Source: Promethearchaeota archaeon (GTDB taxonomy: Archaea; Asgardarchaeota; Lokiarchaeia; Sigynarchaeales; SOKP01). From it: 28,999 nt of DNA. The position numbers and the translations under genes were made by a program. Below, piece after piece: positions 2,513 to 28,953 of the stretch (the first letter of the stretch is position 1; each line of letters begins with the position of its first letter). The stretch is taken from NCBI GenBank assembly GCA_016839845.1, contig JAEOTL010000036.1:1-28999 (forward strand), in the 5' to 3' direction. The notes under the pieces are model-generated. The model ran no database searches, had not been told where the DNA came from, and saw only the letters and a program-made list of their open reading frames with translations.

Positions 2513-3718
2513 TTAAGTTTTTAACAGTGCTTTTGCGTTAGTCTGCCATTCACTCACTTTCTTAGTAGAAATACCACTAATTTTTGAAGATAAGTCTTCT
2601 GGATCGGCATCAAGTAAGTCCTCAACGGTAGTAATCCCTTCCGTTTCTAGACTTTCTGCGGTGCCTTTCCCAATTCCCTTCACATCCATTAATGAAATAT
2701 TTGCTATATCGCCTGATTCTTCATACAAAGTTTCAATCTCAAAATCAACCCCTTTCTCATCGGGAAGTACTACTGTTTCAATGTCAGCAACGCCTGCTGA
2801 AGTTATGAAAAACTCACACTCATTTGGAGGAAGATCTGGTGCATCAACGATGACAGCCCTACGTTTCAATGAACTGTTAGATGAAAATCCCTTGGTCTTA
2901 AACATAACGCGAAAATGACATCCATGAGCCAGAATATTACCCCCAATAGCATCATTCGCGGAGAACATGCCCATCATCTTCGTAGCGACTTGATTGGTAA
3001 GCAATACCGCACAATTGTATGTTTCAGCAATTCGAGATAACCCATGAATCATATTGTTTAAGACTCCTTGCCTCACCGCAAGTTTTCCTATACCGACATA
3101 TTCCGTTCTCATAAGTGCCATTAAACTATCAACAATAATCAGCCGTACTCCCCGAGTCTTACATAGAGTTTCTGCCTTTTGGATCATCTGAGCTTGGTGA
3201 TCAGAAGAATAAATCCGAGCATGATAAATGTGAGACAGGGTTTCTTTAGGATTTAATCCAAATCGATTGGCAATCCGCTTAATTTTTTCTTTCGAGAAAG
3301 TATTTTCAGTATCGATATAGGCAACAGAGGCGTCTAGACCTCCACTTTTTACAGGAAGTTGACACGTCACTGAAATGGTGTGTGCTAGTGCGGTTTTCCC
3401 GGACTTAAAAGGCCCGTACACTTCGGTGAGTTTGCCCGTTTGAAATCCTCCCCCTAGTATCGTATTAAGCTCCGAGGAACCTGTGGTAATGTATTCTACG
3501 TTCTCATCGATCGTTTCTGCACTTACAAAATCTGTCATTCCTAACGCATTTCGAGCATTCCATATTAACTTTTTTGCCGTTTTATCTCCTAATCCATCAA
3601 TTTCGGCAACTATAGATCCGGGAGACATCGCTAATGCTTCTGCGGTGCTAATGCCATTATCTTGTAAAAGTTTTATCTGACGGGCATTGATACCTTTTAC
3701 TTGACTTAAATCCGCCAT
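2513..3718 (-). CDS. radA: DNA repair and recombination protein RadA with extra C-terminal HhH domain
   Basis: Archaeal RecA/Rad51 recombinase; it should form filaments on single-stranded DNA and drive ATP-dependent strand exchange. Residues about 1-60 are the N-terminal HhH domain (VKGI...DGLGDKTAKKL). FVSA at 64-67 fits the FxxA polymerisation motif. Walker A is GPFKSGKT (102-109), the YIDTE strand is at 134-138, Walker B LIIVD at 193-197, and the DNA-binding loop region GGNILAHGCHFRV follows at 259-271. The core ends with the usual VDAPDLPPNE strand near 291-300. Unusually, a second HhH domain (about 342-400, MDVKGIGKGTAESLETEGI) follows, making the protein 401 residues against the usual 320-350. 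A TATA-like element lies about 26 bp upstream of the ATG, which suggests a leaderless transcript; a GGTGAT motif also precedes the start. Confidence 0.92.
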   Translation of the reverse strand: MADLSQVKGINARQIKLLQDNGISTAEALAMSPGSIVAEIDGLGDKTAKKLIWNARNALGMTDFVSAETIDENVEYITTGSSELNTILGGGFQTGKLTEVYGPFKSGKTALAHTISVTCQLPVKSGGLDASVAYIDTENTFSKEKIKRIANRFGLNPKETLSHIYHARIYSSDHQAQMIQKAETLCKTRGVRLIIVDSLMALMRTEYVGIGKLAVRQGVLNNMIHGLSRIAETYNCAVLLTNQVATKMMGMFSANDAIGGNILAHGCHFRVMFKTKGFSSNSSLKRRAVIVDAPDLPPNECEFFITSAGVADIETVVLPDEKGVDFEIETLYEESGDIANISLMDVKGIGKGTAESLETEGITTVEDLLDADPEDLSSKISGISTKKVSEWQTNAKALLKT

Positions 3719-13385: not shown

Positions 13386-15561
13386 TGAAAATCATATCCC
13401 CAGTCCAAAAATACCTTCTGAACAGATAGAATTTCGGCAGTATCAAGTAAAAATTGCGGAACAGTGTGTAAATAAAAATTCTTTAGTGGTATTACCGACA
13501 GGACTCGGAAAAACAATTATTGCAGTATTGACCGCACGTAAAATATTAGATCTCTATCCCGCAGATAGTAAAATAATAATCCTTGCCCCTACCCGTCCAT
13601 TAATCAATCAGCATTACGAAACCTTTATAAAATTTCTTCCTATTCCACAAGAAGAGTATGTCGTATTGACTGGAAAAGTTCTTCCCGAAGATAGAATTGG
13701 TCTTTTTAATACCCATCAGGTCTTGTTTTTTACCCCTCAAACTTTGCGCAACGACTTAGTAAATCGAAGATATACACTGGAGAATACCGCACTTACCATT
13801 TTTGATGAAGCTCATCATGGAACCGGTGATTATCCATACACAATGATTGCGGATGAGTATGTTGAGCAAAATCCCGATGGAACTATTTTAGCATTAACCG
13901 CCTCACCAGGATCTTCAAAAGATAAAATTACTATATTGTGTAAAAATCTGCATATTCCTTTAGAAAACATCCATATTCGGACCCGAAAGGATACCGATGT
14001 CAAAAGTTTCTTGAAACCGATGGATGTGTATAAAATCGGTGTAAACTTGACTAGTTTAATGGAGGAAGTCTATTCTCTCGTCCTTGCTTTATTAGAAGAA
14101 CGCCTTAAATATCTTTCTCAGCTTAACTTTCTCGATGTGAAAGGAGAAATATTGCATACCAAAATAATACGCAAAGATCTTCTGCGGTTAAATAAAGAGT
14201 TTGTGAGTATTGTTCAGAGTAGTGGTGATAAAACAGGAGTGTATAGCGCGTTATCTATAAATGCTCAAGCATTAATTCTTTATCATATGTTAGAATTAAT
14301 AGAGCAGCAAGGATTAGATGTCCTTTTAACTTATTTAGGAAAAGTGAATAATGATGCCCGTAAGAAAAATAGTTTAAAAGCAGTAAAAATCTTGGCAAGT
14401 GATGCTCGAATACGGAGAGTGTTTATCGAATTAAAGAAGAATCAAGATTATTCTCCTGAATACTTGATCCATCCGAAATATCAAGTGTTGGTTCAAGTAC
14501 TTCTAGAAGAATTACGTAATAATCCCAATTCGCGAATCTTAGTATTTGTCAAACTTCGAGATTCGGTGAAGAATATTGCAAAGAATCTTAAAGAAGTAAG
14601 TGGTATTAATCCCGTACGATTTGTAGGACAGGCGACAAAAGCCGCTGATGATAAAGGTCTTTCTCAAAAAAAGCAAATCGAGATTTTAGATCATTTTAGA
14701 GAAGGAGTTTATAATGTATTGGTCTCTACCAACGTAGGTGAAGAAGGAATTGATATCGCAGAATGTGACTTAGTGGTGTTTTATGATGTGGTTGCGTCAG
14801 AGATTCGATTAATCCAAAGAAAGGGGAGAACTGCGCGCCATCGGAAAGGTCGAGTGGTAATTTTGTATTGTAAAGGAACGCACGATGAAGTATATCTAAG
14901 AATAGCACTCAGTAAATTAAAGAAGATGAATATCAATCTTAAAAATCCCCAGCAATTAAAAGAGTCATATAAAGAAGCTTTTTTACCTGAGTATCTTCAA
15001 GGTGTTCAAGATGCTCAAGATGTTCAAGATATCAAGGAGAATTTGGAACCATTGAGCAATGATGGAAGATTAGAAAAACCAAAACTAAAACATCAATTGA
15101 AGCTGCAATCCTTTCTCACCCCTCACGAGTCCCCAGAGCAACCATCTGAGCCTGAAGAGGAAGTATTTGAAGTTAAAATCAGCAAACTTCTTCCCATGAA
15201 ATTTGGGATCCGGAAGAAATTGGTAAAAGATCAGATTAAATTTAGAATTGTAGACTCAGACCTTCACATCTTCATATATAATAAGGTGCTTATTCAAGTA
15301 TATAATCCGAAAGCTGTCATAGAAAATAAATCATTTATCTCGGAAGTCCAAGAACTTGCTGAATTATGTGAATTGTATATAGTGGTATTTGATTTTATCG
15401 ATCTTGATGAGGAGTATCCTGGAGAAAAATTATTTCTCAAGAAAAAGGTTACCGAAGTGAAAAATAAGGTTTCTTTTCAGATCATCCCTATAGAAAATGA
15501 AGAAGAACTCTATTTTATCGTTAAAAGTATTTTAGAAACAATTTCAATGGAGAGTCAATAA
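13369..15561 (+). CDS. hef: Hef/FANCM-like SF2 helicase with PIP box and degenerate C-terminal domain
   Basis: SF2 helicase related to archaeal Hef and eukaryotic FANCM, which remodel stalled replication forks. Motif I is PTGLGKT, motif II DEAH (107-110, counting from the GTG at 13486), motif III TAS (138-140) and motif VI QRKGRTARHR (from 444). The Hef-type N-terminus (IEFRQYQVKIAEQCVNKNSL) lies upstream of that GTG, so the GTG cannot be the real start. The frame opens at 13369 but holds only ATA/ATC as candidates. A linker with short QDAQDVQD repeats and a PIP-box match (QLKLQSFL, 15094-15117) leads to a C-terminal domain of about 130 residues at the position of Hef's ERCC4 nuclease. That domain lacks a recognisable ERKxxxD, having only IENK. 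Stop codon is 3 bp before the next gene. Confidence 0.85.
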   Translation: MTISDSENHIPSPKIPSEQIEFRQYQVKIAEQCVNKNSLVVLPTGLGKTIIAVLTARKILDLYPADSKIIILAPTRPLINQHYETFIKFLPIPQEEYVVLTGKVLPEDRIGLFNTHQVLFFTPQTLRNDLVNRRYTLENTALTIFDEAHHGTGDYPYTMIADEYVEQNPDGTILALTASPGSSKDKITILCKNLHIPLENIHIRTRKDTDVKSFLKPMDVYKIGVNLTSLMEEVYSLVLALLEERLKYLSQLNFLDVKGEILHTKIIRKDLLRLNKEFVSIVQSSGDKTGVYSALSINAQALILYHMLELIEQQGLDVLLTYLGKVNNDARKKNSLKAVKILASDARIRRVFIELKKNQDYSPEYLIHPKYQVLVQVLLEELRNNPNSRILVFVKLRDSVKNIAKNLKEVSGINPVRFVGQATKAADDKGLSQKKQIEILDHFREGVYNVLVSTNVGEEGIDIAECDLVVFYDVVASEIRLIQRKGRTARHRKGRVVILYCKGTHDEVYLRIALSKLKKMNINLKNPQQLKESYKEAFLPEYLQGVQDAQDVQDIKENLEPLSNDGRLEKPKLKHQLKLQSFLTPHESPEQPSEPEEEVFEVKISKLLPMKFGIRKKLVKDQIKFRIVDSDLHIFIYNKVLIQVYNPKAVIENKSFISEVQELAELCELYIVVFDFIDLDEEYPGEKLFLKKKVTEVKNKVSFQIIPIENEEELYFIVKSILETISMESQ

Positions 15562-17483: not shown

Positions 17484-20018
17484 CTATTTCTTTTTATCTG
17501 CTCCCTTAATAATTTTCTTACATAAATTTATCCCTAATCCTGTCTTCTGATTGAGCATATAGAGATTCTCCTTTTTTACTTGAGAGGCGGTATGATACCC
17601 CGCATCATATAAAATCCGTGCTCGTACTCTTGCAACATCACTCAATCGTAACACTAGGTCAAACAGTTCTTCACGAATACCGTAATGAATCCGTATCTTG
17701 AGAGTTTCTGCCATCTCGGCAACCTTGGTAAGCTTATCATATAAGTCCACTCCATGGGTACTTAAACTGCTGGCAATAATACCAATAAAATTTATTATCC
17801 TCTCTAGATTATCTCGTACTCCAAAGAGATCTCCAGCCATTATTTTATAGCGGTCTAGAATATGATCGATAGGCTCCTCATCGGTCCATTCAAGCACAGG
17901 TTCTAACATTTTATAATCCCGTACCTTAAATTCGGATTTTAGTACTTCATATGCTTCTTTTATAAGATCTTGGAACGTAGATAATTTCGCAGTTTCCAGT
18001 TTATATCGAATCATCACCCCTGAAGAGGGATAGAGATAGAGTCTTATTATGAGTTTCCCGAACTGAGAACATTTTATCGTACCATCACTGCTGCTTACAA
18101 TGAGTCCTTTTTCAAAGAGATAATTTATGATGTATTGATTTTTAATACTTTGAGGAATAACATCTTCTACATATTTCTGCACGTTCGAGTCGGGGAAATC
18201 TATTAAGTACAGTAAAAATGCTGTAATATGATTACAAAATTCAAAAGCAAACTCATTATCACCCGAAAAATTATCAGATATACCGTTTTTAAATCCGCAT
18301 GAACATTGAATTCCCAAGTCTATATCAAAATGGCAAGAATATACTCCAAACGTGGTTTTTATATAGCCGGATATAGTGGAATTGGTACATTTGATAATCT
18401 TTATCTCATGTTTTTGAGATCTTAATTCATTTACTTTTTTTGGATCTGAATGAAGTTTCAGTATATTTACAGGGGTGATTTCCTTAATCATGAGTAGTTG
18501 CTCAATAGGAATCTTCTGTTCTTTCATCTTGTGGGTAATAATGTACCAAAAATAAGTCTTCTCGAAGAATTCTTTTAGTTTTTCTAGAGTGATTTTTCCT
18601 TCCTCGAATATTCGTAGTAGTACCTGCTCTTTTAAGATGTGGATTTTGTTTAACCTAGATTGTAAATCGCTGTACCGTGGAATCATCGTATCTTTCATAT
18701 GAGGTGACGCAAAATAATTATCCTCAACCCATATTTTCTCATTAATATCCTTTACTAAAATTATTCCATGACCAACAGAATCTAACCCTGGTCTTCCTGC
18801 TCTTCCAAGGATCTGAAAAACTTCATTTGGAGAAAAGGATTTAAAATACGAAAATCCATCCCCGTTCTCATGATACCCCGTAAAATTCTTGATGTTATAT
18901 CCTGATGTAATATATTTCTTAAAATCGCGTAAAATAACAACTCGTGCAGGTGTGTTTATTCCTGCAGATAAAGTGGTTGTACAACATATAATTTTAATGA
19001 TTCGTTTTCGAAAGTTGTCTTCTATAGCCTTTCGTTCCCGAGCTTGTAATCCTGCATGATGAAATGCGATTCCATTACTTATAACTTTATGCAAATCACG
19101 ATTTGCCCCCTTAATCGAGGTTAATCTTTTCGATACCCCCTTACAGACCTTCAACTCAGATTCTTCCACAACCTTCTTTACAATCTCTTTTAAATTTTGA
19201 GCCGTTTGTTGTGCTGTTTTTCGCTTATTTAAAAATATTAAGACTTGTCCTTTATCGTCTAATACCTTCTTTACGATCCGTTTGATGGTTGAATCTTTAT
19301 TTTGAGTCACTTCAATTTTGTAATGTAAGGGTACTGGTCGCGTCTCCGACTCGATAAGCGTAGTTTGATTACCAAGTGAGGATAACCATGAATTAAAAAA
19401 GGTAGGATTTGCTATCGTAGCACTTAATCCGATGATCTGAGGATTATGGAGGAATTCATTTAAGCGAACGATTAGTGATTCTAACCGCGGACCTCGATCC
19501 GACTCTCCGATGATATGAATTTCATCGATAATGATAGTTGAGATTTCATAAATCCACTCTTTATCATTAAAATTGCGAATGATTGAATCCATTTTCTCAT
19601 AAGTGGTAACGATGATATCTGCTTTCTCTAGCTTTGAGTCATCCACATCATAATCACCAATTGATAGTTCAACCTTTACATCGTATCGAGCATAACTTTT
19701 CTTGAAATGAAAATATTTTTCGGTTGCTAATGCTTTAAAAGGTACTAAATAAATAGACTTCCCAAATTTTTGAAAGATGTTGTTCACGGCACATACTTCA
19801 CCGATAAGAGTTTTACCACTCCCAGAGGGAGTACATACCAAAAAAGATTTTCGAAAAAATAAGCCTTTTTGAATCGCTTCTTTTTGGATTTCTCGAAGCT
19901 GGAAAATTTTATTTTCTAACAACACTCGCAATATTCTCTTATCAGGAATATACTTAAAAATTTCTTTATCTTGGAGGGAATCTTTCGTGATTTTTCCGGT
20001 GAAATCTGTAAGACTCAT
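17484..20018 (-). CDS. Hel308/Ski2-like DNA helicase with inserted SWIM zinc finger
   Basis: 844 residues from the ATG at 20018. SF2 motifs: Walker A PSGSGKT (64-70), DEIH (165-168), SAT (199-201) and motif VI QILGRAGRPG (402-411), typical of Hel308/Ski2 helicases, which unwind lagging strands at stalled forks. In the middle, residues about 550-610 carry a SWIM-type zinc finger, CxC (572-574) and CxH (595-597), in place of uninterrupted winged-helix/ratchet sequence. A Hel308-like HhH end follows (VRARILYDAGYHTASQVKKE...). An upstream ATG (20033) would add five residues. I prefer 20018 because the TATA box is 29 bp upstream and a duplicated copy of this 5' end (21132-21134) keeps only this ATG. 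Confidence 0.85.
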   Translation of the reverse strand: MSLTDFTGKITKDSLQDKEIFKYIPDKRILRVLLENKIFQLREIQKEAIQKGLFFRKSFLVCTPSGSGKTLIGEVCAVNNIFQKFGKSIYLVPFKALATEKYFHFKKSYARYDVKVELSIGDYDVDDSKLEKADIIVTTYEKMDSIIRNFNDKEWIYEISTIIIDEIHIIGESDRGPRLESLIVRLNEFLHNPQIIGLSATIANPTFFNSWLSSLGNQTTLIESETRPVPLHYKIEVTQNKDSTIKRIVKKVLDDKGQVLIFLNKRKTAQQTAQNLKEIVKKVVEESELKVCKGVSKRLTSIKGANRDLHKVISNGIAFHHAGLQARERKAIEDNFRKRIIKIICCTTTLSAGINTPARVVILRDFKKYITSGYNIKNFTGYHENGDGFSYFKSFSPNEVFQILGRAGRPGLDSVGHGIILVKDINEKIWVEDNYFASPHMKDTMIPRYSDLQSRLNKIHILKEQVLLRIFEEGKITLEKLKEFFEKTYFWYIITHKMKEQKIPIEQLLMIKEITPVNILKLHSDPKKVNELRSQKHEIKIIKCTNSTISGYIKTTFGVYSCHFDIDLGIQCSCGFKNGISDNFSGDNEFAFEFCNHITAFLLYLIDFPDSNVQKYVEDVIPQSIKNQYIINYLFEKGLIVSSSDGTIKCSQFGKLIIRLYLYPSSGVMIRYKLETAKLSTFQDLIKEAYEVLKSEFKVRDYKMLEPVLEWTDEEPIDHILDRYKIMAGDLFGVRDNLERIINFIGIIASSLSTHGVDLYDKLTKVAEMAETLKIRIHYGIREELFDLVLRLSDVARVRARILYDAGYHTASQVKKENLYMLNQKTGLGINLCKKIIKGADKKK

Positions 20019-20084
20019 CGTACCATATAACATTGAGCTATATTAATTTAAAGGAAAAATCTGGAATAATCTGTTTGTTCATTT
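19997..20084. repeat. 88-bp direct repeat, copy A (helicase promoter and 5' end)
   Basis: Covers the first seven codons of the helicase gene, its start and its promoter. It pairs without gaps with copy B at 21113-21200 (constant offset 1116): two blocks of 27 and 21 identical bases and about 74 of 88 overall by hand count. The CPBP gene lies between the two copies. Confidence 0.85.
20044..20060 (-). promoter_or_regulatory. Promoter (BRE/TATA) of the Hel308-like gene
   Basis: Minus strand ATTTTTCCTTTAAATTA; near-identical to the M50 operon promoter at 8264-8280. Placement predicts a transcript starting at or within a few bases of the ATG at 20018. Confidence 0.6.
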
Positions 20085-20202: not shown

Positions 20203-21042
20203 TTAGAAATTCTTCTTGTGCCAATTAGTAATAAATTTTATCCAAAGGATTGTCAAGATGATAGGGATGAATTTTCCAAATAATAATATATATATGATCC
20301 TTATTTCTATTGATAGAGCTGGTATAAAAAGCCATAACCCATCAAGAGCATTGCTTAAATAATGTAAAATTATACTTGGTATGAGGGAATTTGTTTTTAT
20401 GACTAAATATCCCCAGAGTAATCCCATACCAACAGCCCAAATAACTTGTGCTGTTGTAAAAATAAACTGCTCATAATTGAACTCATGAAGCAAATTTGCA
20501 TAATGAACTACTCCAAAAAAAGCTGCGGAAATGAATAATGATTTCTTTTCAGAATAATGTGCCAATAATAAAGTTAATATAATCCCTCGAAACATTATTT
20601 CCTCAAATAATCCCGCATTAATATTTAGGAGCCAATATGATTGAGGAGGCACTATTCGAGAAGCATCGAAAACGTATTGACCATATATTAAAGATCCAAT
20701 AAGTTGAAAGATAACAAAAATAAAATAACAGCTCACAGTATAAAATAATATCCTTGAAAAGGGGCGATAACTAGTTACATGAATCCCCTCTAAATAATCA
20801 CTAAAAGTATCATATTTTTTAGGTAGCTTATAAGCAAATGGCACAATTAAAAAAACTAATGAGCACCAAAACAAACAGGTGATAATGATTTGCATGATCT
20901 GGTTGAAATTTTGATCGATAGACGGAATTAATAAAGAAACAGAGGCAGCAGCAACAACAATTGCTAAATTTGTGGCTATTAAAATAATGACTGATTTAAT
21001 GGGTTTGTCAGTTAGCATTTTTGAATGATATTGATTTTTCAT
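20203..21042 (-). CDS. CPBP family intramembrane glutamic endopeptidase
   Basis: 279 residues with seven to eight hydrophobic segments. The three CPBP (Rce1/Abi type) motifs are present: EEIMFR (ExxxR-type, catalytic glutamates), FFGVVHYAN (FxxxH) and ILHYLSNALDG (HxxxN). Family members cleave CAAX-like or other membrane substrates, and in bacteria are linked to bacteriocin immunity; substrate here is unknown. It has its own TATA box (minus strand CTTATATTATAT, 21058-21069) about 22 bp upstream of the ATG. The gene sits between two copies of an 88-bp repeat that duplicate the neighbouring helicase's 5' end, so it looks like a later insertion between two divergent genes. Confidence 0.85.
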   Translation of the reverse strand: MKNQYHSKMLTDKPIKSVIILIATNLAIVVAAASVSLLIPSIDQNFNQIMQIIITCLFWCSLVFLIVPFAYKLPKKYDTFSDYLEGIHVTSYRPFSRILFYTVSCYFIFVIFQLIGSLIYGQYVFDASRIVPPQSYWLLNINAGLFEEIMFRGIILTLLLAHYSEKKSLFISAAFFGVVHYANLLHEFNYEQFIFTTAQVIWAVGMGLLWGYLVIKTNSLIPSIILHYLSNALDGLWLFIPALSIEIRIIYILLFGKFIPIILTILWIKFITNWHKKNF

Positions 21043-21239: not shown

Positions 21240-23261
21240 ATGACACTTGAAAAAGAACTAAAGCGTAAAAAAGAGAATCTTAAACATTTTTATCAGATGG
21301 CCCAAGAAGCATTAGATGCAAAAAACTTAGAGCAGGCAATAAAAATATCGGCAAAAGGGCTTGAAGAAGGAGATACGGAAGACGAAGAAGAATGGGCAGA
21401 TAAGTTTGATGAGGTAAACTCAACTCTAGAATCAGCACAAGAAAGTCAATCTATAAATACCACTATCTCACCAGAGGATATTACCATAATTAAGGGGGTT
21501 GGAGTTACTGTCGCCGAGAAATTAAAAGCAGCAGGTTTTCATACTATTAGAATGATTGCTGACGCTACTCTTCCACAGCTTACGCATGTTCCGGGAATCG
21601 GTCAGAAAACCGCCCAAAAAATATTAGAAGGGGTTCAAACCATCCTCTCCCGAAAAAGCCTTAACGATTTCCCTGAAGAAGTTCATACCAAAGAGACTCC
21701 ACCTCCTACAACCAGAGAAGAAGGTAATGATATTAAGACAATTGAGAACCCTCCCGTTCAAAAAGCCTCATTTCCATGGTTTGAGGATAAATTCAGGATC
21801 AAACGATTAGGACACTCCCGCAGAACAAAAACAGAACAGTATCAAGAATATATAACTGAAAAAATTGGTGATGACTCTGATTATACTTCAGAAAATTTAG
21901 AAGATGAATCAGATTACATCTCCCCCCAAGATTTTATTGAGAGTCCTCCTACTCAAACCCCACCAGTACCGGAAGCAGTAAATATTCTTAATAGACCGCA
22001 ATTATCCCAAGAGTCATATAGTGACAAGCTAGTGAGAAATAAGGCACAGCAATTAAATGTAGTACAAGAAGAATTACTACCCTCTGAGAAAAAATCGGTT
22101 ATTGAAGGAGTAATTCACACATTGCGCAAATTAAATTTTCACATCGTCGAAAGGGTACGATTATTAAAAGAGTTATCAATGAATAGTGACCTAATTGCCA
22201 TAAAAATAGTCCATGCCAATGAATTCTTAGATCTGGTTCTAATCCTTCCTATTAAACTCAATATGCTCAAAGGGCAGATTAAGATGTCAAACGATCAAAT
22301 CAAATACATCCCCTTAAATGATAAATTCAATGAGAATGGGTCTTCATTCCGAATTTTATTAGATTCTACTATTAATGATTTAGGAGAAGTATATACTGCA
22401 ATGCGAGATGATCTCGTCAATGAAGGAAAGCTTTTATCATATATTCGCTCTCACCTACAAGTGGCCATCTCTATTGAAAAATCACTCACCAAAAAGAACC
22501 TTTTCTTTCGAGCAGGTTCTCTTCAATATAAGATGTTCATTGAGCCGATAATGCTATGTAGTAATGAAGTTAAATTCTTAGAGAAAGTACTCCCCTTTCC
22601 TTATCTGAAAGATATCAATCTTCATGTGCTTAACGAGCTAAAATTTTCAGACTTTCTTGCATATCTGGGGCAAAAATATATATTTATCGAAGAACAAAGC
22701 AGTGAAAAAAGCCTATTGATTTCTTATGAAGATTCTTTTAATCAGTTCTTACAAAATGGAAAGAAATTATCTCTTCCCTTTATTGGATTTGGGGCGGTGC
22801 TACTTACATTGCTTTTATTTCAATCTTTCTCTATGTTGGAAATGGTAGTGAATATTGGTTATGCTTTGCTTGGGGTGTACCTTACCTCATTGGTCTATTT
22901 ATACATTAAATTTTTCAAGATTAAACTCGAAATACAGACCGATTTTGGAATCCCCTATCATCAGAAGCAAATACATATTGATGATACGGGATTAGCGCTA
23001 ATTAAGAATGAATTGCCTGCGGAAATGATGCATCAGTTTATTTATGAATGTTTTGGAAAACATTCCGATTCGAAATTTATCCATAAAATGGAAGAATCAC
23101 TTACAAAAGAAAAATTAGATAGAACGGTACCCTCTTCTCAAATCAAAAGTGAGCAAGGCTTCGAAGAAAGGGAAATCCAAGATGAGAACAAAAAGATGGG
23201 AGAGGACTTACAAGAAGACGATGAGATAATCCAAAAATATAGTTCATTTTTGGAGGGTTGA
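21240..23261 (+). CDS. Helix-hairpin-helix membrane protein (first gene of VirB4-like operon)
   Basis: 673 residues from the ATG at 21240 (678 from 21225). An N-terminal helical pair resembles one TPR or MIT unit (LKHFYQMAQEALDAKNLEQA). A tandem HhH pair of the Rad51-N/RuvA type follows at about 80-140 (IIKGVGVTVAEKLKAAGFHT, then HVPGIGQKTAQKILEGV). Next come a long acidic, proline-containing linker and a mixed domain (about 280-510). Two hydrophobic segments at about 515-570 form a hairpin, and a charged tail follows. HhH pairs usually bind DNA non-specifically or mediate protein contacts, so a membrane-anchored version suggests a link between DNA and envelope. It is coupled to the next gene through a TTGA/TGA overlap or a 5-bp gap, depending on which start is used. 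Confidence 0.75.
   Translation: MTLEKELKRKKENLKHFYQMAQEALDAKNLEQAIKISAKGLEEGDTEDEEEWADKFDEVNSTLESAQESQSINTTISPEDITIIKGVGVTVAEKLKAAGFHTIRMIADATLPQLTHVPGIGQKTAQKILEGVQTILSRKSLNDFPEEVHTKETPPPTTREEGNDIKTIENPPVQKASFPWFEDKFRIKRLGHSRRTKTEQYQEYITEKIGDDSDYTSENLEDESDYISPQDFIESPPTQTPPVPEAVNILNRPQLSQESYSDKLVRNKAQQLNVVQEELLPSEKKSVIEGVIHTLRKLNFHIVERVRLLKELSMNSDLIAIKIVHANEFLDLVLILPIKLNMLKGQIKMSNDQIKYIPLNDKFNENGSSFRILLDSTINDLGEVYTAMRDDLVNEGKLLSYIRSHLQVAISIEKSLTKKNLFFRAGSLQYKMFIEPIMLCSNEVKFLEKVLPFPYLKDINLHVLNELKFSDFLAYLGQKYIFIEEQSSEKSLLISYEDSFNQFLQNGKKLSLPFIGFGAVLLTLLLFQSFSMLEMVVNIGYALLGVYLTSLVYLYIKFFKIKLEIQTDFGIPYHQKQIHIDDTGLALIKNELPAEMMHQFIYECFGKHSDSKFIHKMEESLTKEKLDRTVPSSQIKSEQGFEEREIQDENKKMGEDLQEDDEIIQKYSSFLEG
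23252..23257 (+). promoter_or_regulatory. Shine-Dalgarno motif deciding the start at 23267
   Basis: GGAGGG lies 9 bp before the GTG at 23267-23269 but directly abuts the TTG at 23258, so the GTG is the better start. Confidence 0.55.
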
Positions 23262-23266
23262 ATACC

Positions 23267-23926
23267 GTGGAAAGATCACTCCCGTTTTATTTTAAGATAT
23301 TATTCTTAGTAGGGGCAACCGTACTGTTTGTCTCTTTATGTGTAGAGTGGTATATATTTCAGATGTTTGAAAACGGAATATTGACGGTATCGTGGAGTTA
23401 TAATATTTTTTTTGAATGGTCAACCGAATTTCCTTCAGGAATTACGGTTAATGAAAATTTTCGCCCTGAAAACTTAGAAATATCCCCTATATTAAATTTC
23501 CTTTTTATTGGTGTTTTATTTTTTACGCTCTATACCATTTTTTTTAAGGATTTAGAGCAATCTGAAGACATAACATCCCTCAGAAAATTCTCGTTTGGGT
23601 TTGTCTTCCTAATCGCATTACTATTATTTTATATTGTTGTTTTTCCTCTAATGTATTTAATTCCTCATAAGTTATATTTTCCCTCTTTGATAGATAATAA
23701 TCTTAACTTGGGGGTACGGATATCGTATGCTATTAGTTATGGCTATATTATACAACTCATTGGGTTTATACTCGTGTTTCCCTTTTCATTACATTATTAT
23801 CTTACTATAACCCAGTTTGCAAGGCAAGAAAACACCCCCGAAAAAAGGATTGCGGGTTATATCAAAAATGTTCAAGAATATATTGATCTTGATAAATATA
23901 TCGCAGAAGAGGAAGCAGTACCATGA
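23267..23926 (+). CDS. Four-TM protein of the VirB4-like operon
   Basis: 219 residues from the GTG at 23267 (an upstream TTG at 23258 overlaps the previous stop). Four hydrophobic segments: about 8-30 (ILFLVGATVLFVSLCVEWYI), 72-93 (PILNFLFIGVLFFTLYTIFF), 106-132 and 148-175. A short extracellular-type loop follows the first segment and a charged C-terminal tail follows the last. No motif or family recognised. It overlaps the next gene by 4 bp (ATGA), so translation is coupled. Probably an integral part of the same membrane complex as the HhH and VirB4-like proteins. Confidence 0.72.
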   Translation: MERSLPFYFKILFLVGATVLFVSLCVEWYIFQMFENGILTVSWSYNIFFEWSTEFPSGITVNENFRPENLEISPILNFLFIGVLFFTLYTIFFKDLEQSEDITSLRKFSFGFVFLIALLLFYIVVFPLMYLIPHKLYFPSLIDNNLNLGVRISYAISYGYIIQLIGFILVFPFSLHYYLTITQFARQENTPEKRIAGYIKNVQEYIDLDKYIAEEEAVP

Positions 23927-24789
23927 GTAATAGCGTATTAGATTTAAAATTAAAATCATTAATCAATGCCTGTAAAGCTTCAGGCAATTTCAAAAAACTA
24001 GCTGTGGTAGGATTTGTATTAACCAGTAATTTGGTTGATGAGATATCCATAAAATTAGGGATGCGTCCTCGGCGTAAGAAAGAACAGGAGAAGTTGTGTG
24101 AGTATCTTTTATTGGTAAATGAAGTATTTGAAAAAAATCTTCAAATCACCATCTTTCATTCTGATCTAATTGAATCTCTAAAAGAAGTGGAGTTCCTTTT
24201 TTTAAGAAGTCGTGGTAACCTTCCCTATGAATATATCAGGCAATTAATTACCATCTATTACGAATTACGAAAATTTGAAGTTCCCAATCTTCATAAAGGA
24301 ATGGTAGGTGAGGATCTATTCAACCACTCGAATATGGGAACTCTCAGTTATCTTTCCCGTGAGTCTAAATCCCGAAAAAGAAAAGAGGAAAATAAGTTTA
24401 AACCCATCTTAGAACACACGATTTCTCAAAAAGAGAAAAATATTCGAAACAAACTAAACCGAAAGTTAACTCAATCTGATTTAGAAATGGCAATTCATCT
24501 GCGAAAAATCAAAAATAGCTTAGAAAAGAAAGGAAAACAAAGAATCATGCTTAATGGGTCTCTTAAAGATAATCTATTGTATGAACAATCTCAGCATAAA
24601 TTAATTGGATACCTTCTCTTAGGTGTTGCTCTGCTTTCTGTATTGTTTGGGATAATACTTATTGGAGAGATATTTCTCCTTCCAGTCACATTAGAACCAC
24701 TAAACCAAGTGTTATTAATTTCATTTGGGTTTGCCTTTTTGTTTATCATTATCTATCGAAATTATTCGAAAAGAGGGAAAGTATCATAA
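23923..24789 (+). CDS. Basic helical protein with C-terminal two-TM hairpin
   Basis: 288 residues. Residues 1-220 are helical and strongly basic (RPRRKKEQEKL, SRESKSRKRKEENKFK, QKEKNIRNKLNRKL), with no Cys or catalytic motif. Two hydrophobic segments close the protein (about 225-246 and 256-276), followed by a basic tail (YRNYSKRGKVS). The soluble part should be cytoplasmic and its charge would suit contact with nucleic acid or lipid. It overlaps the upstream gene by 4 bp, and its stop codon (TAA 24787-24789) overlaps the proposed ATA start of the next gene. No family recognised. Confidence 0.72.
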   Translation: MSNSVLDLKLKSLINACKASGNFKKLAVVGFVLTSNLVDEISIKLGMRPRRKKEQEKLCEYLLLVNEVFEKNLQITIFHSDLIESLKEVEFLFLRSRGNLPYEYIRQLITIYYELRKFEVPNLHKGMVGEDLFNHSNMGTLSYLSRESKSRKRKEENKFKPILEHTISQKEKNIRNKLNRKLTQSDLEMAIHLRKIKNSLEKKGKQRIMLNGSLKDNLLYEQSQHKLIGYLLLGVALLSVLFGIILIGEIFLLPVTLEPLNQVLLISFGFAFLFIIIYRNYSKRGKVS

Positions 24790-27700
24790 GAACTAGTTAT
24801 ACTAAGAAGGCAGAGGATCAATCTCGTGAAAAAACTCGGGAGATCGTAATCGAAGAAAAAGACGGGAAACATTCACCACGAGAAGTTCCAAATATATGGC
24901 GGTTAAATCCTTCTTATATCCATACCAACAGTACCATGTCAATAGCACGGATTATTATCCTCAGTGGGTTGGGCACCCTCCTCATCGGTGCTACCTACCT
25001 TTTAGGTGGGTCTCTTCCCGTTTCGATAAGTATTGGTGTTTCGATTGTCATTGGGTTTATCATAGTATTTTATGATTATATACCACGTATTATCAATAGT
25101 TTTCAAAGTAAGATTGTTATCAACCCGTTTGAAGATCTACTCTCCTTTTGGGAGAAAAATGATCAAACTACTCTTTTTATCACCAATAGAAAAGAGCTAG
25201 TACACACCGGTCTTCAGATTTTTCGAGTAGAAGAAATTCCTGAAAACATCCATGCGTCGCTCAATTTATTTGTGAAATCACTCAGTGGATATAAAAACAT
25301 GGTGGAATTTACCTATCAAGTAGTTCAGACACCCTATACGTATTTAACACAATCTCCTGAGTCCCATAATACTCATGTTAAAACAATGGACTCTCGTTCC
25401 ACAAATATCTATTTTTGCGTATATTATACTCTCAAAGGATTTCTCACTCGTAATAAAATAAAGTCATTACAACAAAAAATGCGGTCTGTGGGAAATATTC
25501 TTCGCAATAATTTTATTGGAAATTTTCATCATTTTAAAATTACATTACTTTCGGGGGATACTTTATTTAATGCCTTGAGGACGTATTTTTTTAAAATCCC
25601 TGCACATTTACCTAGGGATGAAAGTGAATCCAGGGTAAAAAATACATTGTCTAGCAAATCCATGATGAAAGCTTCGTTTACGTGTTTTCTTATTGTTTTT
25701 ATTGATTATATATTGGTCGTTTTTTCAATTCCTCTTGTATATATCGTGCTTATTAATCTCATCTTGTTAACGTTAATTCTCTTCTTATGGTGGCGAGAGC
25801 TTCTTTCTATGGTAGGGAAGGGATCATTTCCTAAACATCCTTTTACTTCACTTAATCTCTTTCAAGGAACTACGTTCTTTCGATTTCGACACTATCCTGA
25901 TACAGTTTTCATGCATATTCATAACAAATTGGTAATTGGGGTGAAAATGTTTAACCTTGCTTTCTGCTTTCCCCCTGCATATTCTCGAACCGACAAGTTT
26001 ATTCAAGCACTCATGACTCAGAAAGTTTCTTTTGCGTATACTTGTATGAATACTCCTTTGTCCTTTGCTTCATTCTATAAAAAGGGGGAAAAATATCTCA
26101 ATCAAAACACAGATTTTGAGTTGTTTAACTCGAAATGGAGAATAAAGACAAAAATCGATGCACTTAATTGGTTGGCAATGCGTTCAGGAATGTGGAAGAC
26201 AATACTCACTATTTCTGTCCATGAATATGAAATAACAGAAGAGCTAAATAAAGGAAATATTACCACGATTGAAGAACGACTTGAGCAGAGAGCCGAAGTT
26301 CTACGTAGTGCGTTTAATATGAATTTTTTTAATTATGAGTTAGTCCGTTTAAGGGGTAGAAAATTAATTTCAGGGATGCGGTGCGAGATTGTGAAAAATT
26401 GTGAATATTCGTATAACGGTACCCGTTTGAATTATCTGTTGTTTCAAGGAAAAGGACTCTTACATCTTATTCAAATTGTTGATGAGCTGAAAAAAGGGAT
26501 TGAAACAAGAGTCGCTTCAGAATTCAATACACCATTACAATTGGAAAATTATATCACTTTAGGGCATACGGTCAATACCGAAGTATTAGAGGAAGAACTT
26601 CCCTTTGGATTCACAGAGGATCAAGTAAAAAACCTTTTAATTATGAATGGTTCTCTTACCAGTCGAGAATTATGTGCAATGAAAATAGTATCGGAGTTAA
26701 TTGGTAAAAAGATTCCATCCCTTATTTTTGATTTTCGAGGAACATGGTCCCGACTAATTCCCTCCTTTAAAGGTACACCCCATGAAAATGACTTTTTACA
26801 CCTTAAACTGGGAAGTGCTTTTACCTTAGATCCGCTAAAATCCGATATTCCCTATGATACCAATAATATTGAGTTCTTAAGCTACATGTTTGACGCCTAT
26901 GCCTTGTCGTTTAAAAAAAATCAGAATACAGTTGATATGATCCGAAACACCATCATGCGTAATCCTGAAATGGATCTATCCTCTTTGAACTTGGAACTTA
27001 TTAACCAAAATAAATGGGAGAAAAACCCAGCAAGCGACACACTTCTTGCCCTCTTTGGAGATTTTACTCAGCAGGATTTACCATACCTTCATTTGTCAAC
27101 CACAACCTCAGGACAAACGGGAACTATTACATTTAAAGATTTCATAACTAATGATAAAACAGTAATTATTGATCTTTCAGTAAGTAATGATTATCGAAAA
27201 CAAATTTTCTTTGCATTTTTAATTCTTTCTAAAATCATTCATTATCTTAATTTTTCAGGTGTATATCACCAGAAGGTGATAGTTATCCCCCATGCTGATA
27301 TAATGTTCGACAGCTTTTGGATAGATAAGCTCAGTGACTATGGAAAAATCAATAAGTTTCTAGACCCGCTGGTGGCAAAAGGATTTGGCTTACTGTTCTC
27401 TGCAAATCAGGCTCACTATTTGCATCATAATTTCATGTCTTTTTTTGATAACATTATCGCATTTAAAACAAAAGACAAACGAGACATTGCTGCAATCAGT
27501 AATATTATGGGACTTCAAGAATTGGAGGGAATCGGGTATTATTCTCGCTCTAGGAATCAAACCTATCAATTTCGATATTTAATGAGTATGAAAGATGATG
27601 AGGCGGTAGTCAAACGGGCAGATATATATCAACCTTTCCCAGTACAAATGGAATGGAGTCAAATAAAAAATAAACTCCCAATGGAAGAAAACGAATTATT

Positions 27701-28604
27701 TGATTATATGAACTCTCAAGGATATGATATAAGGGATACTGAGAAAAAAATACTAGAGCAAACCCGAAAAACCATTTTCCAAAAAGATTTAGGGATCTAT
27801 TCGGGTTTTATTGAGGAGGTCAAACATTTCTTAGAGGCTCTAAAAACAATCGATCCGGTGGGAAATTTATATGAAAAAAGAGTGAAAAAAGAGTTAAAGA
27901 ACTTTATCTTTCCCAGAGCATCTAAAATCTTTAAGGATAAAGCGGAGATTAAAAAGAGTAGGGACGAGATATTTAATATTTTGGTTAAATTTGGATATTT
28001 AGTTGAAGATCATCCCACCAGAGCAAGTGGTTCGGAATCTGTGAGAACTTCCTTCTCAGTAGGTTCTCACTATGATAAAGCTTTAGATGATGAGTTTGAT
28101 ACAAAACAGTCATATGAAATTGAATCGTTAGATTTTGAATCTTCTATTCCACAAAATCTCAGCAGAGAAGAAGGGCAATCAAGAGCATATATTATTAGAA
28201 GAAAAAGCCTTAAAAAAGCTCTTGCACGGGAATTTAGTAATTTTCTCTTTGAATTATTCAACATATATGAGTTTATTAATCGTGAAGAGTATAAAAACGC
28301 ATTAAAGGTTGAGCATAACCTGGTACGGAGGTTTCTTATTGAAGTTTATAAGCAATATTTTAATGCGAACTATTTAATCACCACAAAAGATCTTACTGAA
28401 TTTATAGAACACCTTGTGACTGATGCAAATATCCCCTTTACTACAAAAGAACTCATAGAATATGTAGAACGGTATCAAGTAGTTGATTTTGAACATTCTG
28501 ATTTAGAATCACTCGCAAATGAAGTTTACGAATTTATTTCAGTTTTTTTTGATAAGATTCAATTGTTTATGTATAAAAATGAGGAGGTCAATTATGAGCA
28601 TTGA
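24786..28604 (+). CDS. Large membrane-anchored VirB4/HerA-like protein with degenerate ATPase motifs
   Basis: 1222 residues from the ATG at 24936. The frame is open with a protein-like sequence (KKAEDQSREKTREIVIEEKD...PNIWRLNPSYIHTNST) back to the upstream stop codon, giving about 1272 residues if an ATA at 24786 starts it. Numbering from 24936: TM pair at about 4-45, second pair at 246-287, a VirB4-type middle region, then an ATPase-like domain from about 550. Its P-loop strand reads LIMNGSLTSREL (569-579) where G-x4-GKT is expected, so the lysine is lost. The following strand LIFDFRGTWSRLIPSF keeps the VirB4/HerA pattern. The Walker B site is IVIPHADIMFD without DE. A C-terminal helical extension of about 280 residues follows. 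It is probably a structural pseudo-ATPase. Confidence 0.72.
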   Translation: MRTSYTKKAEDQSREKTREIVIEEKDGKHSPREVPNIWRLNPSYIHTNSTMSIARIIILSGLGTLLIGATYLLGGSLPVSISIGVSIVIGFIIVFYDYIPRIINSFQSKIVINPFEDLLSFWEKNDQTTLFITNRKELVHTGLQIFRVEEIPENIHASLNLFVKSLSGYKNMVEFTYQVVQTPYTYLTQSPESHNTHVKTMDSRSTNIYFCVYYTLKGFLTRNKIKSLQQKMRSVGNILRNNFIGNFHHFKITLLSGDTLFNALRTYFFKIPAHLPRDESESRVKNTLSSKSMMKASFTCFLIVFIDYILVVFSIPLVYIVLINLILLTLILFLWWRELLSMVGKGSFPKHPFTSLNLFQGTTFFRFRHYPDTVFMHIHNKLVIGVKMFNLAFCFPPAYSRTDKFIQALMTQKVSFAYTCMNTPLSFASFYKKGEKYLNQNTDFELFNSKWRIKTKIDALNWLAMRSGMWKTILTISVHEYEITEELNKGNITTIEERLEQRAEVLRSAFNMNFFNYELVRLRGRKLISGMRCEIVKNCEYSYNGTRLNYLLFQGKGLLHLIQIVDELKKGIETRVASEFNTPLQLENYITLGHTVNTEVLEEELPFGFTEDQVKNLLIMNGSLTSRELCAMKIVSELIGKKIPSLIFDFRGTWSRLIPSFKGTPHENDFLHLKLGSAFTLDPLKSDIPYDTNNIEFLSYMFDAYALSFKKNQNTVDMIRNTIMRNPEMDLSSLNLELINQNKWEKNPASDTLLALFGDFTQQDLPYLHLSTTTSGQTGTITFKDFITNDKTVIIDLSVSNDYRKQIFFAFLILSKIIHYLNFSGVYHQKVIVIPHADIMFDSFWIDKLSDYGKINKFLDPLVAKGFGLLFSANQAHYLHHNFMSFFDNIIAFKTKDKRDIAAISNIMGLQELEGIGYYSRSRNQTYQFRYLMSMKDDEAVVKRADIYQPFPVQMEWSQIKNKLPMEENELFDYMNSQGYDIRDTEKKILEQTRKTIFQKDLGIYSGFIEEVKHFLEALKTIDPVGNLYEKRVKKELKNFIFPRASKIFKDKAEIKKSRDEIFNILVKFGYLVEDHPTRASGSESVRTSFSVGSHYDKALDDEFDTKQSYEIESLDFESSIPQNLSREEGQSRAYIIRRKSLKKALAREFSNFLFELFNIYEFINREEYKNALKVEHNLVRRFLIEVYKQYFNANYLITTKDLTEFIEHLVTDANIPFTTKELIEYVERYQVVDFEHSDLESLANEVYEFISVFFDKIQLFMYKNEEVNYEH
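28581..28587 (+). promoter_or_regulatory. Shine-Dalgarno motif deciding the start at 28594
   Basis: GAGGAGG lies 6 bp before the ATG at 28594, inside the end of the VirB4-like gene. It rejects the upstream in-frame ATG at 28519, which has no such motif. Confidence 0.65.
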
Positions 28605-28953
28605 TAAGGAGCGAAAAAAGCTTTTGATGGAAATGACTGAACAGATCTTACTAAATGAAAAGGAACTTGAATCATTAAAATTATTAATTAATGATTTGAG
28701 TATAGGAAAAATTGATCCAAAGCAATTAAAAATTGCGATCATTAAAAGCAGAGCAACAGCCCTAAGGCGAATTACTGATATTTTCCCTTTTTTTCACAAA
28801 AGAATAATAAACCAACAAGAGATTAATAACTTTGCATCTAAAGATAACAATTCTGAACTAATCCAAGAACTAGAAGAGAAAAACAAATTTCTCGAAGAGA
28901 TTGGAGAAAGAGTAAACAATATACTGGATAAATTGCAAGGTAAAATTGAATAA
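28594..28953 (+). CDS. Small coiled-coil protein, last gene of VirB4-like operon
   Basis: 119 residues, no Cys, no TM. Two predicted coiled-coil helices: residues about 5-35 (KERKKLLMEMTEQILLNEKE) and 88-119 (SELIQELEEKNKFLEEIGER). Between them is a basic helical stretch (KSRATALRRITDIFPFFHKR). It overlaps the VirB4-like gene by 11 bp, with a strong Shine-Dalgarno motif inside that gene, so it is translationally coupled. Likely a soluble partner or adaptor of the membrane complex. No family recognised. Confidence 0.68.
   Translation: MSIDKERKKLLMEMTEQILLNEKELESLKLLINDLSIGKIDPKQLKIAIIKSRATALRRITDIFPFFHKRIINQQEINNFASKDNNSELIQELEEKNKFLEEIGERVNNILDKLQGKIE

Follow-up and report, generated by a model that had tools for sequence, protein, structure and literature searches.

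The crenarchaeal systems Ced and Ted use VirB4-like proteins for DNA import in repair; CedB and CedD are presented as VirB4/HerA-like proteins with transmembrane (TM) segments and partial VirB4 N-terminal domains (NTDs) (PMC11868833), and recombination genes are reported in the neighbourhood of Ted (PMC9905601). HerA, the partner of NurA, forms an active hexameric translocase (PMC9905601), and another source describes a Rickettsia VirB4 paralogue, VirB4b, with an altered nucleoside triphosphate-binding cleft and a suggested function as a gate (PMC2653234). Here we analyzed a window (the whole stretch of 28,999 nucleotides of contig JAEOTL010000036.1, assembly GCA_016839845.1) from a Promethearchaeota archaeon, in which five plus-strand genes, g1 to g5, include that of a VirB4-like membrane protein (g4). 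The conservation of this protein, usually near an unusual DNA-repair helicase, points to an undescribed membrane machine for DNA handling or uptake in many Asgard archaea. These archaea are the closest known prokaryotic relatives of eukaryotes, and to our knowledge little is known of how they exchange and recombine DNA; a VirB4-like membrane protein combined with a Hel308-type helicase and RadA-type parts is a concrete candidate for such exchange. No description of the module was found among the matches listed in open-licence papers searched by title and start of abstract.

Fold and nucleotide site of g4

The predicted model of g4 and its fold comparison gave a VirB4-like fold across the N-terminal domains and the ATPase core, i.e., a VirB4-type NTD followed by a RecA-like core, in agreement with the VirB4/HerA fold order proposed in a preliminary description made from the sequence alone. 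Two TM hairpins lie within the chain (model helices 2–24/27–45 and 240–262/267–284; the hydropathy scan marked three segments vs. these four helices), while a winged-helix-like part and a helical C-terminus are located behind the core. The best fold matches of the core include HerA-type defence ATPases and DndH. At the P-loop, the commonest residues in the family are N-G-T-x-x-x-R-E, and none of the 134 Loki-type and 30 distant sequences had a Walker A motif in register; the loss of the Walker A lysine, first noted for the window, holds across the g4 family. The loss of the Walker B acidic pair stood for the Loki proteins (P785 in 138 of 139 alignment rows) and did not extend to some of the distant homologs, which retain it (DD or DE in 11 of the 13 cores first aligned, DE in 3 of the 17 added later).

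In other Asgard lineages, reached by a profile search across the phylum, g4 is often split into a TM/NTD protein of ~ 250–350 amino acids and a core of ~ 480–535 amino acids, or is alternatively represented by one g4-like protein of ~ 780 amino acids. Profile comparison connected g4 with both the distant cores (99.9%, E 4.8e−36) and the TM/NTD proteins (98.1%, E 9.6e−14). A winged-helix-like part closes the distant cores (Pfam matches in L070 and L075 were weak and below the cut-off), and 28 of the 30 have an arginine at the P-loop. As GK[ST] occurs at the P-loop in none of these 30 cores (0/13 first aligned, 0/17 added later), the loss of Walker A is, judging from the aligned sequences, common to lineages well beyond Lokiarchaeia. 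In L075 (6299–7189) and L077 (3007–6729), nitrogenase-type NifH-like genes (with NifD/K-like ones in L077; labels given by eye) directly follow the pseudo-ATPase core.

The Walker A (GK[ST]) and Walker B motifs required for ATP hydrolysis by VirB4 are lacking in g4, and since the Walker A test failed, we did not classify the protein as a VirB4, CedB or HerA ATPase. It works like, or derives from, a protein of the VirB4/CedB/HerA type, and its sequence and model suggest a VirB4-type protein no longer able to hydrolyse ATP. Continued nucleoside triphosphatase activity via a non-canonical pocket would fit the retention of R577 (133 of the 139 rows), E or D at 578 (123 rows), and D599 and G602 (all 139), as well as the DD or DE at Walker B in 14 of the 30 distant homologs, but the absence of any in-register Walker A argues against it, as do the HerA-like ATPases beside the second-class loci described below, which kept Walker A in 6/6 checked; we consider such activity improbable. 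The missing catalytic residues could also mark a decaying remnant of a conjugative element. Against this origin, which we regard as extremely improbable, stand the long open frames, the 41 invariant columns among 44 g4 sequences, a conserved gene order and a loss common to Asgard lineages; a decaying gene was rejected because of this conservation of g4 and of the gene order.

The five-gene locus and its relatives

All five genes are present in series with open frames (Table 1), and the arrangement given in the preliminary description was confirmed as a whole. That the genes abut or overlap was borne out by 4-nt overlaps for g1/g2 and g2/g3, and applies likewise to g3/g4 if g4 starts at 24786. 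Upstream of the first ATG of g4 the frame is open and translates as IRTSYTKK...IWRLNPSY, which aligns with the N-termini (MKTSYSRK..., MKTGYTKK...) of homologs that are 71–75% identical; the position of their start methionine reads ATA in the window and overlaps the g3 stop codon TAA. Because of this alignment we placed the start at 24786, so that g4 probably comprises ~ 1272 amino acids. For g1, the frame is open from 21225 and the starts of homologs align to the methionine at 21240 (M6, at least 90% conserved in A3), the start already proposed, while the ATG of g5 is preceded by GGAGGT and its end was correct.

Table 1 Features of the window
Feature	Coordinates	Strand	Remarks
g1, membrane protein	21240..23261	+	upstream of g2 in 27/28 A-type loci
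HhH module of g1	21468..21662	+	residues 82–146 counting from 21225
g2, four hydrophobic segments, TTG start	23258..23926	+	
g3, soluble domain and C-terminal TM hairpin	23923..24789	+	
g4, predicted membrane-anchored VirB4-like pseudo-ATPase	24786..28604	+	probable start; first ATG 24936
g4 degenerate P-loop	26646..26669	+	residues 571–578 from ATG 24936
g4 Walker B position without acidic pair	27276..27299	+	residues 781–788
g5, small helical or coiled-coil protein	28594..28953	+	open reading frame open from 28519
Hel308-type helicase linked to the cluster, SWIM-like zinc-finger motif	17484..20033	-	divergent from g1
SWIM-like motif CxC...CxHxxA in helicase	18219..18305	-	residues 577–605
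Rce1/CPBP-like membrane protease	20203..21042	opposite to g1–g5	between helicase and g1

The g1 protein consists of a TPR-like N-terminus, a RadA-type tandem HhH, a disordered linker, an alpha/beta domain and a TM hairpin (model helices 497–531 and 535–575); the tandem HhH claimed earlier proved real (Pfam HHH_5, E 1.1e−12) and the hairpin was modelled as well. With the four hydrophobic segments of g2 and the C-terminal hairpin of g3 (hydropathy scan), hydropathy and models together supported four membrane proteins, g1 to g4. No Pfam or NCBIfam match above the cut-off, including type IV secretion system parts such as VirB6 and VirB2, was obtained for g2, g3 and g5; of 227 Asgard genomes, 40 had a match to g2 and 41 a match to g3.

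The search with g4 yielded 94 protein clusters, one of them that of the window and the rest 32–81% identical, with named sources among Promethearchaeota-, Thorarchaeota- and Hodarchaeota-labelled metagenome-assembled genomes and one marine sediment metagenome. A pattern scan using one genome per species gave 53 loci (51 titled Lokiarchaeota/Lokiarchaeia and 2 Hodarchaeum mangrovi), 33 of which were classified as A-type, i.e., with a g3 or g5 neighbour, and 20 were not. Gene order is conserved among these relatives: g1, g2 and g3 are present in 27 of the 28 A-type loci with > 3.8 kb upstream (the exception being L015), and g5 adjoins g4 in 27 of the 30 with > 500 bp downstream, the counts for g3 and g5 being partly true by definition because A-type requires one of them as a neighbour. 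Given the 94 protein clusters and the conserved gene order, the five-gene cluster is more than a chance arrangement. In L015 (9023–12709) the N-terminal part of g1 with the HhH is fused in frame to g4 from about residue 326, reflecting either a deletion or an assembly error, while inserted genes in L021, L022 and L040 push the g5-like gene several kb downstream of g4. Two GNAT-like genes (F5 and F7, labelled by eye) follow g5 in many Loki loci (L002, L005, L006, L020, L039, L047 and others); the window ends before this position.

Second-class g4 paralogues without g1–g3 were found in L030 (9692–15642), L031 (2688–13758), L033 (9494–20433), L038 (9524–23256) and L046 (823–12000), where g4 adjoins a HerA-like ATPase with an intact P-loop (DUF87 in L030 and L031). 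Four of these five loci also encode an acidic protein of 1466–1903 amino acids, the giant proteins differ (that of L033 has TFIIB repeats), and a family F10 protein (with TPR in L011) often precedes this g4. A defence function against phages or plasmids, like that of SIR2-HerA, DUF4297-HerA or DndH, would be in line with the partly nuclease-like appearance (by eye) of the giant proteins, with the match of the L030 HerA-like ATPase to PADLOC mad8 (E 1.4e−9) and to HerA models (E 1.3e−5 and weaker), and with the above-mentioned fold matches of the g4 core. We nevertheless find it very improbable, as g4 has a stable setting beside a repair helicase and a single match in 7 of 12 genomes (2–5, fragments included, in the remaining ones), and PADLOC had no match for g1–g4 and one of only E 0.02 for g5, on which ground a recognised defence system was rejected.

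The linked Hel308-type helicase

In Lokiarchaeia, a Hel308-type gene is located upstream of the cluster and divergent from it in 20 of the 25 A-type loci with > 6.5 kb upstream. The helicase lies directly 3′ of the core gene in 15 of the 17 loci L095–L111 (L102 ends earlier and L110 has none there), and in G087 and G089 the two genes are divergent, ~ 8.5 kb apart and have a RadA paralogue between them. In some lineages the core is also linked to recombination genes. Full-length matches to profile A10 (ten linked helicases) outscore canonical Hel308. Among the matches listed for the 227 Asgard genomes, using author-chosen cut-offs (~ E 1e−30, ~ E 1e−40 and 465 bits for the helicase profile), a strong core, second-class g4 paralogues and fragments included, was present in 94 and the linked helicase type, assigned by score rather than by motif in each row (borderline G098 and G099 count only here), in 93; both occurred in 80, the core only in 14 and the helicase only in 13 (Fisher's test on presence p 2e−32, uncorrected for kinship). 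The two were at most 25 kb apart on one contig in 61 of these 80 genomes, farther apart in 2 and on different contigs in 17; the helicase of G136, an N-terminal piece with the rest on another contig, was kept below the cut-off (415.6 bits) and counted as linked. As a control, again among the matches listed, none of the 27 genomes with both a core and a canonical Hel308 had the two within 25 kb of each other, vs. 22 of these 27 for the linked type. In G185 a canonical Hel308 is found on the same contig as the core, ~ 43 kb away.

The helicase of the window scored 337 bits against the NCBIfam Hel308 model (best stretch residues 31–509), below the equivalog cut-off of 1200 bits, a hard threshold reached in only one of 14 control genomes and in none of the 11 Asgard genomes. 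The linked helicases are superfamily 2 (SF2) helicases like Hel308, but they fall below the family cut-off, carry CxC...CxH, and their gene is not the one that encodes canonical Hel308 elsewhere among Asgard genomes. In the Lokiarchaeia G001, G002 and G008 the linked helicase is the best Hel308 match (280–286 bits, the next reaching 110–118), and in 5 of the 8 other genomes searched an unlinked Hel308 scores better, at > 500 bits. The motif CxC...CxH is present in 21 of 22 linked helicases from Loki loci (the one without it is a fragment of 257 amino acids at a contig edge) and in 12/12 from other lineages, and absent from all six canonical Hel308 proteins. The window helicase has the full CxC...CxHxxA and conforms to the SWIM zinc finger signature, with the Pfam SWIM profile giving no listing for it at E up to 1; xxA is kept in 10/22 Loki and 4/12 other linked helicases. 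According to PMC6316741, CXC...CXHXXA is the SWIM signature of Sws1/Shu2, partners of RAD51 paralogues; the window's protein shares it, but within a helicase. In 19 of 22 related loci with this helicase there is no gene of at least 200 amino acids between helicase and g1, the place of the protease in the window. The window also encodes, farther upstream, a Hef-type helicase (13486–15561) and a RadA with an extra C-terminal HhH (2513–3718).

Proposed role and comparison with known systems

On balance, g4 was probably kept as a membrane-anchored platform or gate after losing ATP hydrolysis, with the helicase supplying the motor, along with DNA-handling partners. VirB4 and HerA oligomerise, and g4 would do the same at the cytoplasmic face of the membrane, where it would hold or pass DNA; the linked SF2 helicase would provide the motor missing from g4, g1 with its RadA-type HhH and the winged-helix-like part of g4 would bind DNA and aid its hand-over to RadA, and g2, g3 and g5 would complete the membrane assembly. 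By analogy with Ced and Ted, the most likely role would be membrane-coupled homologous recombination, above all in the form of DNA uptake for repair; DNA import itself we hold to be possible, short of probable. More tentatively, the module may represent an ancestral Asgard machine for DNA uptake and recombination in which a dead conjugation ATPase forms the membrane gate, the motor being a Hel308-type helicase with a zinc finger that draws single-stranded DNA inward and delivers it to RadA. If this is true, a translocase fold became a dead scaffold across lineages and is powered by another ATPase family, an unusual evolutionary step.

The main rival is membrane tethering without transport, whereby the complex would fix DNA, RadA and the helicase to the membrane in the course of repair or segregation, with no passage across it. 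The repair-gene neighbours, the HhH in g1, the weak winged-helix-like parts in g4-type cores and the lack of a recognised channel or pilin are all compatible with a tether, but a VirB4-type NTD and core with TM hairpins belongs elsewhere to envelope-crossing machines, and small multi-TM genes (hydropathy) lie near the core in L075, L077, L118, L120 and L121, so that we rate it as rather unlikely. The complex for DNA handling or chromosome tethering suggested in the preliminary description finds partial support.

Unlike the VirB4/TrwK of type IV secretion (R388; Thermoanaerobacter VirB4), g4 lacks Walker A, carries two TM hairpins within its chain and continues past the core with a winged-helix-like part and a helical C-terminus; Pfam and NCBIfam recognised no other part of such a system in the cluster. 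Compared with HerA, g4 is membrane-anchored and dead; the Pfam scan, which covered the 20 proteins of the window and not the related loci, gave no NurA. No CedA channel or CedA1 pilin was recognised near g4: the CedA/TedA channel has 6–7 TM segments vs. the four of g2 (hydropathy only), and the CedA1/TedC pilin was sought by length and hydropathy only. Without Walker A, g4 also does not qualify as the CedB (TedB)-type ATPase powering transfer. Both g4 and Rickettsia VirB4b (PMC2653234) are VirB4-type proteins with an altered nucleotide site; VirB4b is there a second copy beside an unaltered VirB4a, whereas in Asgard archaea the dead form is a conserved family and its partner a helicase. With CedB and CedD, g4 shares the VirB4/HerA-like character, the TM segments and the small TM partners, and its loci lie, as in Ted, among recombination and repair genes; it is set apart by a dead ATPase domain, that of CedB/CedD being presumed active, by its Hel308-type partner helicase and by its Asgard hosts.
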